Origin: Clostridiales bacterium
GTDB taxonomy: Bacteria; Bacillota; Clostridia; Christensenellales; Borkfalkiaceae
Direction: 5' to 3'
NCBI GenBank assembly: GCA_015069615.1
Contig: SVIF01000001.1
Span: forward strand, 62,001-126,000
DNA: 64,000 nt
Notes under the pieces: model-generated
Seen by the model: the letters and a program-made list of their open reading frames with translations, nothing else
Told to the model about the DNA's origin: nothing
The model's database searches: none
Made by a program: the position numbers and the translations under genes
In this document: positions 35,415 through 43,450 of the stretch, in pieces
How the letters are laid out: each line of letters begins with the position of its first letter
Position numbering within the stretch: position 1 is the first letter of the stretch

Positions 35415-35438
35415 GTTTTTAATTTACGTTTTCTTTTG

Positions 35439-35630
35439 CTACGACTGTGCCCGGGCGGCAGCGTATTGGGATCCACAATCTTTTATAAGGGAGAGAAATC
35501 CCCTATGCCCAAGCGGTGCCTACGCAATTGGATGATTGCACTTATTTAGTAGGATGCAGAGGGTATAGAGTATCTCACCCACCTGCACAAAGCGGGTTTT
35601 CAAATCTTTGCTTTATCGGCACAGTGGTAG
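35439..35630 (+). ncRNA. Strongly structured RNA of unassigned class
   Basis: A 192-base element with a closing stem of 13 positions: CTACGACTGTGCC (35439-35451) pairs with GGCACAGTGGTAG (35618-35630), a single G/G mismatch. Inside are GCGTA/TACGC (35461-35465 with 35521-35525) stacked near TGGG/CCCA (35467-35470 with 35508-35511), a GGGA/TCCC hairpin (35489-35502) and a 3' hairpin TGCAG..GGGT..GAG with CTC.ACCC..CTGCA (35555-35587). TTTTT follows the closing stem. There is no ORF. Size, position after a ribosomal gene and fold suggest a known or new ncRNA class (raiA-type or 6S-like were considered, not shown). The plus strand is chosen for the T-run; the minus strand cannot be excluded. Confidence 0.7.
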
Positions 35631-35649
35631 TTTTTACAAAAAGATGAAA

Positions 35650-42521: not shown

Positions 42522-43133
42522 CTAAAAAACTTCTTTTTCTGGTTTGTTTATAACATGATCTAATATAACCATAAAATTGAAATCATCTACCACTTGAAAT
42601 AAATATGTCTTTTTTTCGGTTTGAATTTGAAGCATATTTTCAACAACATTTAAATTTATAATCTCCTCATACTTAATAACTGAGGAATTTTTAATTGCGC
42701 TAAAAATAATTTTTTTATTTGTTAGGTAGATTACGCCATCAGTCTTTTCCGTTATATCTTGCTTAACATAATGCCCACGGTAATTTCCAACCCTAAAACT
42801 TACCCCCTTTGCAACCCTAAAAGAAACACCACGACTACCGCCCTCATACCCAACAGTTTGTTGTTTTACACGGCAAAAACATGCGTTACCCATAAAATGG
42901 CAAAGTTCATTTTGGGTTAATTGAAGATTACTACAATTTATAATTGGCAAGCCATTTTCCAAAAGTTCTTTTGTCTTTCTATCCCACTTTTCCTTTAACT
43001 CCGCCTCTTCTATCCTCCTTGCTTCTTCCATCCTCGCCTCTTCTTGCTGTTTTTCTTCTTTTCGCTTATTTGTATAATAAACGATAATCGCAATAATGCC
43101 ACCAAGCATCAATAAACCCAACAACCCTTCCAT
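42522..43133 (-). CDS. Membrane-anchored protein with PH-like C-terminal domain
   Basis: 203 residues: one N-terminal membrane helix (~3-20), a charged coiled coil (~22-55, EEKQQEEARMEEARRIEEAE), then a cytoplasmic domain. GVIYLTNKKIIFSAIKNSS and the following strand pattern resemble the bacterial PH-like domain of stress proteins that carry the YL-TN-R/K-hh motif. A cysteine-bearing middle (FMGNACFCRVKQQ) precedes it. It is A/T-codon rich. An unusual structured leader with a terminator lies directly before its ribosome site (TCCTCCT complement, 43137-43143). Confidence 0.65.
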   Translation of the reverse strand: MEGLLGLLMLGGIIAIIVYYTNKRKEEKQQEEARMEEARRIEEAELKEKWDRKTKELLENGLPIINCSNLQLTQNELCHFMGNACFCRVKQQTVGYEGGSRGVSFRVAKGVSFRVGNYRGHYVKQDITEKTDGVIYLTNKKIIFSAIKNSSVIKYEEIINLNVVENMLQIQTEKKTYLFQVVDDFNFMVILDHVINKPEKEVF

Positions 43134-43145
43134 AATTTCCTCCTA

Positions 43146-43366
43146 AAAATAAAAAAGTGCGCCAACCGAAGTCAACGCACCGAAAAACGCAAACTCCGAT
43201 TGTCGCCAAACAAATTTCAAGCATACGAAAGGGATTCCCGTTCACAATAACCTGATGGAATTTGCGATTTTACCAAAATCATACAGATATTGTGAACGCG
43301 AAAATAAGGAATTATTCTTCTAAAAAAGAAAAATATCCCCACGTTTGCTTATAAAATTTGTTTGGC
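43146..43366 (-). promoter_or_regulatory. Riboswitch-like structured leader
   Basis: Starts at the expected transcription start. P1: GCCAAACAAATTT (43354-43366) with AAATTTGTTTGGC (43205-43217), 13 perfect pairs. P2: AAGCAAACG (43342-43350) with CGTATGCTT (43219-43227), one mismatch. P3: CGTTCACAATA (43288-43298) with TATTGTGAACG (43239-43249), 11 pairs. Its loop CGCAAATTCC (43257-43266) can pair with GGAGTTTGCG (43188-43197) outside P1, a 10-bp pseudoknot. The terminator at 43151-43180 follows, then the ribosome site. The order fits a riboswitch that acts by termination. No known aptamer class is recognised. Confidence 0.7.
43151..43180 (-). terminator. Intrinsic terminator inside the leader of the PH-like gene
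   Basis: GTGCGTTGAC and GTTGGCGCAC (with G-U pairs) around a TTCG loop, then TTTTTT. It stands ~8 bases before the AGGAGGA ribosome site, so reading the gene needs its bypass. Confidence 0.85.
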
Positions 43367-43372
43367 ATAGTT

Positions 43373-43401
43373 ATCATAACACATATTTTTTATTTTTGCA
43401 A
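43373..43401 (-). promoter_or_regulatory. Promoter of the leader RNA and PH-like gene
   Basis: On the minus strand TTGCAA (43396-43401), 17-base spacer, TATGAT (43373-43378). The expected start is at or next to the first base of P1. Confidence 0.85.
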
Positions 43402-43411
43402 GGGTTTTTAG

Positions 43412-43450
43412 AAAAAAATAAAACTCGGCTTTGATAAGCCGAGTTTTTCT
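43412..43450. terminator. Terminator after the DUF164 gene
   Basis: ACTCGGCT with AGCCGAGT, T-rich on both strands. It closes the minus-strand operon that ends with the DUF164 gene. Confidence 0.88.

Follow-up and report, generated by a model that had tools for sequence, protein, structure and literature searches.

We report that the 64,000-nucleotide stretch of Clostridiales DNA analyzed here (the window; contig SVIF01000001.1, positions 62,001-126,000) carries on its minus strand a leader RNA of approximately 210 nt, extending from a predicted transcription start to a terminator T run (43151-43367), which is very probably a conditional transcription terminator acting in cis, an orphan riboswitch candidate, and a member of a new RNA class. 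Comparison among homologues shows the predicted closing stem (P1), terminator, antiterminator and pseudoknot, the sharing of strands between them, and the positions of the promoter and the gene. In our sample of Clostridia, roughly one genome in four carries this class, with as many as 13 copies per genome. Rfam lacks it, and its members precede hundreds of unrelated genes, including lipoprotein, BspA-repeat and zinc-ribbon genes, in gut bacteria that have yet to be cultured. If its ligand is found, this would reveal a signal sensed by gut bacteria, and supply a ready-made sensor.

Architecture of the leader RNA

The near-consensus promoter proposed in the original prediction was found on the minus strand as TTGCAA-17-TATGAT, with a -35 element TTGCAA (43396-43401) and a -10 element TATGAT (43373-43378) separated by a 17-bp spacer. 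The latter can be read as an extended -10 element (TGt-TATGAT, 43373-43381), and across 168 copies the corresponding TGnTATAAT, together with TTGA, is kept at constant spacing from the closing stem. At the downstream end, on the same strand, the ribosome binding site AGGAGGA (43138-43144) and the ATG of the controlled gene (43133) follow in the order originally described. Directly before the leader promoter, at 43412-43447, the cdsZ-like gene upstream has a strong terminator, which insulates the unit on its 5' side; hairpins resembling it also precede several homologues (e.g., L004, L009, L013).

Between these ends, the leader transcript has a structure far from chance, with a folding energy of -84 kcal/mol compared with -45.9 +/- 4.2 kcal/mol for dinucleotide shuffles (z = -9.0), and it is matched by our covariance model from 43367 to 43152 with 187.5 bits. 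All of the following elements are on the minus strand. The first 13 transcript bases had been predicted to pair perfectly with a later segment, and this 13-bp closing stem, P1, is formed by GCCAAACAAATTT (43354-43366) and AAATTTGTTTGGC (43205-43217), which covary among homologues. Enclosed within P1, the computed fold contains the 11-bp inner hairpin that had also been noted (CGTTCACAATA, 43288-43298, with TATTGTGAACG, 43239-43249), a helix that varies among homologues. The predicted 10-bp pairing with one G-U between loop and tail likewise bears out, linking CGCAAATTCC (43266-43257) with GGAGTTTGCG (43197-43188). Partner exchange and pairing in homologues place the apical-loop strand of this pseudoknot at 43257-43271 (AAAATCGCAAATTCC), and its 3' strand, GGAGTTTGCGTTTTT (43183-43197), adjoins the 3' end of P1 directly. 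The apical-loop strand additionally has an alternative partner in the local apical 5' strand.

The intrinsic terminator with its TTCG loop and T6 run occupies 43151-43180 (GTGCGTTGAC-TTCG-GTTGGCGCAC-T6), as had been proposed. One decisive feature, absent from the original prediction, is an antiterminator that pairs CAATCGGAGT (43193-43202), which overlaps the pseudoknot strand and is backed by covariation, with ACTTCGGTTG (43163-43172), which lies within the terminator hairpin. This hairpin is also present in the minimum-energy structure computed for the transcript. When the window tail is folded without the pseudoknot, this antiterminator is the computed minimum-energy fold, at -19.2 kcal/mol vs. 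-14.8 kcal/mol for the terminator alone.

Homologues, covariation and strand exchange

In a DNA search, 30 of 61 related genomes had a match, and several of these had multiple copies; 25 full-length copies (alignment A1) were used to build a covariance model, R1, that contains no pseudoknot. Within the order, R1 matched 62 of 297 genomes, and a class-wide sample gave matches in 81 of 341, while in a phylum-wide sample of 398 genomes it matched the window's own genome alone (0/397 others), so that this sample also serves as a control for the specificity of R1. A short pattern covering the 3' part of the RNA found at least 119 stretches, derived from uncultured Clostridia, Oscillospiraceae and similar metagenome-assembled genomes, many of them from herbivore guts, as well as from 4 viral contigs. 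The first 100 of these stretches all matched R1 (100/100), and did so end to end, covering even the 5' half, which lies outside the pattern, save for a handful cut off by the end of the stretch. In total, 170 distinct RNA copies were gathered. Some weak model matches were antisense shadows of palindromic stems or spurious, and 5 rows (e.g., L095 minus, L196) were taken out by hand after the exchange test described below.

We counted covariation on an alignment of 98 distinct homologues (A6). P1 was paired in 97.1% of cells, with 198 double-change cells vs. 55 in shuffled controls; the corresponding values were 99.0% with 79 vs. 28.7 for the terminator, and 98.4% with 51 vs. 23.6 for the antiterminator. 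All three signals collapsed when the partners were slid by 1-3 columns. The pseudoknot was paired in 98.0% of cells across the same 98 homologues, most of which were found by a pattern that fixes the pseudoknot 3' strand; the divergent set, which was found with the pseudoknot-free R1, tests the pseudoknot independently. In several divergent copies (L211, L219, L173, L209, L215 and L216), both the pseudoknot and the antiterminator are rebuilt with different letters, such as AAAAACGU(A)UUCUCU with AGAGAAACGUUUUU in the pseudoknot of L211, and GGCAAUUCUUGUCUUGUCUU with UAGGCGAGGCAAAGUUGUA in that of L219. Covarying homologues and compensatory changes, which the original prediction had named as checks on itself, were thus both obtained: the former among the 98 aligned copies, and the latter in P1, in the terminator and in the rebuilt loop-tail pairing.

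In the antiterminator consensus, the linker and pseudoknot strand (CWAUCGGAGU) pairs with ACUUCGGUWG of the terminator hairpin. Within the alignment, column 296 has one partner in the antiterminator (column 253) and another in the terminator (column 286), and all three change together, indicating that the terminator and antiterminator states are both under selection. We had also considered a pairing between the loop strand and the 5' arm of the terminator, which share UGCG; this pairing fails where the terminator has changed (e.g., L003), whereas the antiterminator, which uses the linker together with the pseudoknot 3' strand, held when the terminator changed.

Exchanging strands between copies gave a further measure of these pairings, with statistics that make no correction for kinship among the copies beyond collapsing those with half their 8-mers in common. 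For the pseudoknot, own partners paired at -18.5 kcal/mol vs. -17.2 kcal/mol for foreign partners (z = -7.0, all copies), and at -15.4 vs. -12.1 kcal/mol in 29 divergent rows (z = -4.9). The antiterminator likewise favored its own partner, at -16.0 vs. -13.1 kcal/mol overall (z = -12.2) and -14.0 vs. -9.9 kcal/mol in the divergent rows (z = -7.1), and the apical-loop strand also preferred the local 5' strand of its own copy (z = -6.4 for all copies, and -8.4 in 20 divergent rows). These tests therefore point to three competing pairings, namely a local apical hairpin, the pseudoknot and the antiterminator. Conserved unpaired bases are few by eye across the divergent copies, consisting of GGYA in the loop and RAC in the linker, and an AAUA bulge is mildly enriched across copies.

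Carriers and downstream genes

Ten carriers examined singly had 5-13 matches per genome, and the window's own genome had six, or five copies once an antisense shadow is set aside. Some copies occur in tandem with little or nothing between them, such as L163 2667-2888 and 3029-3232, L173 2782-2979 and 3062-3213, three copies on the minus strand at L166 1382-720, and L019 357-168 and 599-439 (minus), with a promoter of its own visible for the second copy in L173. Tandem riboswitch copies share one promoter, and separately promoted tandems are unusual. We also observed a degenerate copy of 100 nt (L197 607-706) that keeps P1, the linker, the tail and the terminator, without the apical pseudoknot loop; such a copy would presumably be stuck in a single state.

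The gene controlled by the window RNA encodes a 203-aa protein (42522-43133, minus strand). The original prediction of a PH-like membrane gene stands as to the membrane, with an N-terminal membrane anchor, while the PH-like part amounts to a weak, sub-threshold GRAM/PH-like match. This gene is rare: among 61 family genomes searched, the only relative outside its own genome was in G026, a member of another genus, at 67% identity and with the RNA directly upstream there too. The G026 RNA carries a matched change of antiterminator and terminator (CAAUCGG..GGUUG to CUAUCGG..GGUAG). At the cdsZ loci of relatives, the RNA was found in 0 of 24 within the flanks examined, and at the three of these loci with longer flanks, the clpB and CopG neighbors were not found, so synteny itself is not kept. 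The pairing of RNA and gene in G026 and the absence of the RNA from the 24 cdsZ loci together suggest an accessory module of RNA plus gene.

Outside the window, a ribosome site and start codon follow the terminator within 120 nt in 139 of 169 copies, at a median distance from terminator to start codon of 22 nt (and at no more than 40 nt in 114/169). For the other 30, no clear gene lies within that distance, and some of these are tandem copies or are cut by contig ends. Scanning the 139 downstream products with Pfam, PHROGs and PADLOC yielded 15 with BspA repeats, 12 zinc ribbons and many singletons, with no common pathway or metabolic theme found among them; 45 are lipoprotein-like by a simple pattern, and the remainder are mostly of unknown kind. 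The device, which brings its own promoter, is a portable accessory unit, and the many proteins encoded behind it are unrelated to one another and often surface-exposed or of the zinc-ribbon type. This raises the question of why a single switch should accompany such a changing collection of accessory genes.

On contigs classed as viral, we observed the RNA in L187, L188 and L190 (the same RNA) and in L189, preceding a zinc-ribbon protein in L187 and a lipoprotein in L189. A search of a phage collection gave one match, in an unverified phage scaffold from human faeces (MT835503.1 485-539, L300), and a search of a plasmid collection gave no match to the RNA. Carriage of the RNA by phages or mobile elements is suggested by these copies.

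Candidate mechanism and alternative explanations

The original prediction of a cis-acting RNA that chooses between termination and reading of the gene is supported by the covariation of a terminator and an antiterminator that exclude each other, and by a covarying pseudoknot built on the antiterminator strand. In the mechanism that we propose, transcription would start at the closing stem and P1 would form, after which the tail (GGAGUUUGCGUUUUU) would face two choices. In the OFF state, the tail would invade the apical loop in a pseudoknot of 10-15 bp; because the pseudoknot uses up the antiterminator strand, the terminator would be free to form and transcription would stop before the gene. 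In the ON state, the loop strand would be paired locally, and the tail (CAAUCGGAGU) would pair with the terminator segment ACUUCGGUUG, blocking the terminator so that the gene is read. We infer that some effector tips this balance, likeliest by binding and stabilizing the pseudoknotted fold, and it would act as an OFF switch since the minimum-energy fold of the pseudoknot-free tail contains the antiterminator.

Several features fit the hypothesized identity of the leader as an orphan riboswitch. It lies in a 5' leader, with a promoter upstream and a start codon at the short median distance given above; it has a conserved covarying domain, comprising P1, the antiterminator and the terminator along with the pseudoknot; and its expression platform is mutually exclusive, with column 296 common to terminator and antiterminator and the GGAG strand common to pseudoknot and antiterminator. 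The original prediction, which knew of no aptamer class with this layout, agrees with a search of Rfam (4227 families), which gave no relevant match for the window at the gathering score, for the RNA at a permissive E-value, or for 16 divergent homologous loci. A published description of the leader RNA was not found in the searchable literature, supplements and subscription journals aside. The candidate RNAs of Fremin and Bhatt from the human microbiome (PMC8040213) are similar in their gut sources, and some lie beside terminators; the main text of that paper mentions no pseudoknot or such family, and with candidates given as numbered models in its supplements, overlap with our RNA is possible.

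We rate the RNA as a new class within a familiar kind of device; its strand-sharing design, copy number and theme-less targets are unusual. The preQ1, c-di-GMP-II and fluoride riboswitches likewise combine a 5' leader position, a pseudoknot with the 3' tail, and an antiterminator opposed to an intrinsic terminator, and, like the c-di-GMP riboswitches of Clostridia, pseudoknotted riboswitches can stand before different genes at several places in one genome. Unlike these, the window RNA has no Rfam match, encloses a larger domain, and uses as its pseudoknot strand the antiterminator strand itself, which covaries freely. This design, with a third, local competitor for pairing, is unusually clean and directly testable in vitro. 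Unlike the carriers and targets of c-di-GMP-II and similar riboswitches, some carriers of the class lack GGDEF and its targets share no common pathway; c-di-GMP as a general ligand was rejected because GGDEF was missing from 4 of 10 carriers, among them the window's own genome (86% complete) and G340 (12 copies, 97% completeness). T-box leaders of Firmicutes similarly pair a conditional terminator with an antiterminator, but a T-box was rejected here, with none among the Rfam matches and a different antiterminator sequence (CWAUCGGAG with CUUCGGUWG, with no tRNA-acceptor bulge), and with targets that are not amino-acid genes. Antiterminators of the BglG/LicT type, which overlap the terminator hairpin in the same way, are hairpins of about 30 nt next to their own regulator gene, in contrast to a structured unit of 130-240 nt with a pseudoknot and no adjoining regulator. 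Leader-peptide attenuation was also set aside as unlikely for want of a conserved frame: an ATG occurs at +1 in 71/170 copies with scattered frame lengths, and an internal ribosome site and start in 12/170.

As to what the switch responds to, one possibility, somewhat less likely than not, is an undescribed, Clostridia-specific riboswitch class, common in uncultured gut lineages, that senses a small molecule, possibly specific to the gut; as a portable promoter and switch before dozens of unrelated accessory and surface genes, it would let one signal control variable, horizontally gained genes. Weighing against an orphan riboswitch, the downstream genes have no common pathway, unlike those of most metabolite riboswitches, and conserved unpaired bases are few. 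A somewhat unlikely alternative is that a protein or small RNA binding the pseudoknot or antiterminator operates the same leader: the diverse targets and few conserved unpaired bases would fit the regulon of one RNA-binding regulator, and the terminator and antiterminator are evident with no pointer to a metabolite among the downstream genes. Yet no partner gene adjoins the RNA, and its P1-enclosed structured domain is longer than required by known protein-binding antiterminators, which are short and need no long enclosed domain. The competition between three helices seen in the exchange tests, again with few conserved unpaired bases, could also serve a sensor without ligand, in which exchange among apical hairpin, pseudoknot and antiterminator reads temperature, elongation speed or nucleotide supply; we consider this improbable, as P1 and its enclosed domain are kept at 130-240 nt in very diverse genomes, which a pure timing device would not need.

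Two further explanations would dispense with the switch. The promoter and terminator sit exactly at the ends of the unit, some tandem copies without a gene have their own promoters (L163, L166, L173, L019), and a clear gene is missing after some copies, all as would be expected of a free-standing, trans-acting small RNA with the next gene expressed by leak. Such a stand-alone RNA becomes less likely because the start codon lies about 20 nt after the terminator in most copies (within 40 nt in the 114/169 noted above); moreover, in G026 the gene travels with the RNA, and a covarying antiterminator would be useless in it, such that we regard this explanation as quite improbable. Least probable is a folded DNA recombination site of integron-like gene cassettes with incidental RNA structure, which would account for copies before unrelated accessory genes, sometimes in tandem, and for the missing unit at the orthologous place in relatives. 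The sigma-70-type promoter at fixed distance, the acceptance of G-U pairs at paired positions, and an antiterminator that overlaps a T-run terminator are instead features of RNA, and no integrase was common to the downstream products, the part of the surroundings that the search covered.

Elsewhere in the window, a stretch on the plus strand (35436-35634) gave a borderline Rfam match to 6S RNA (48.5 bits, compared with a gathering score of 46.4), and may represent this lineage's divergent form of 6S RNA.
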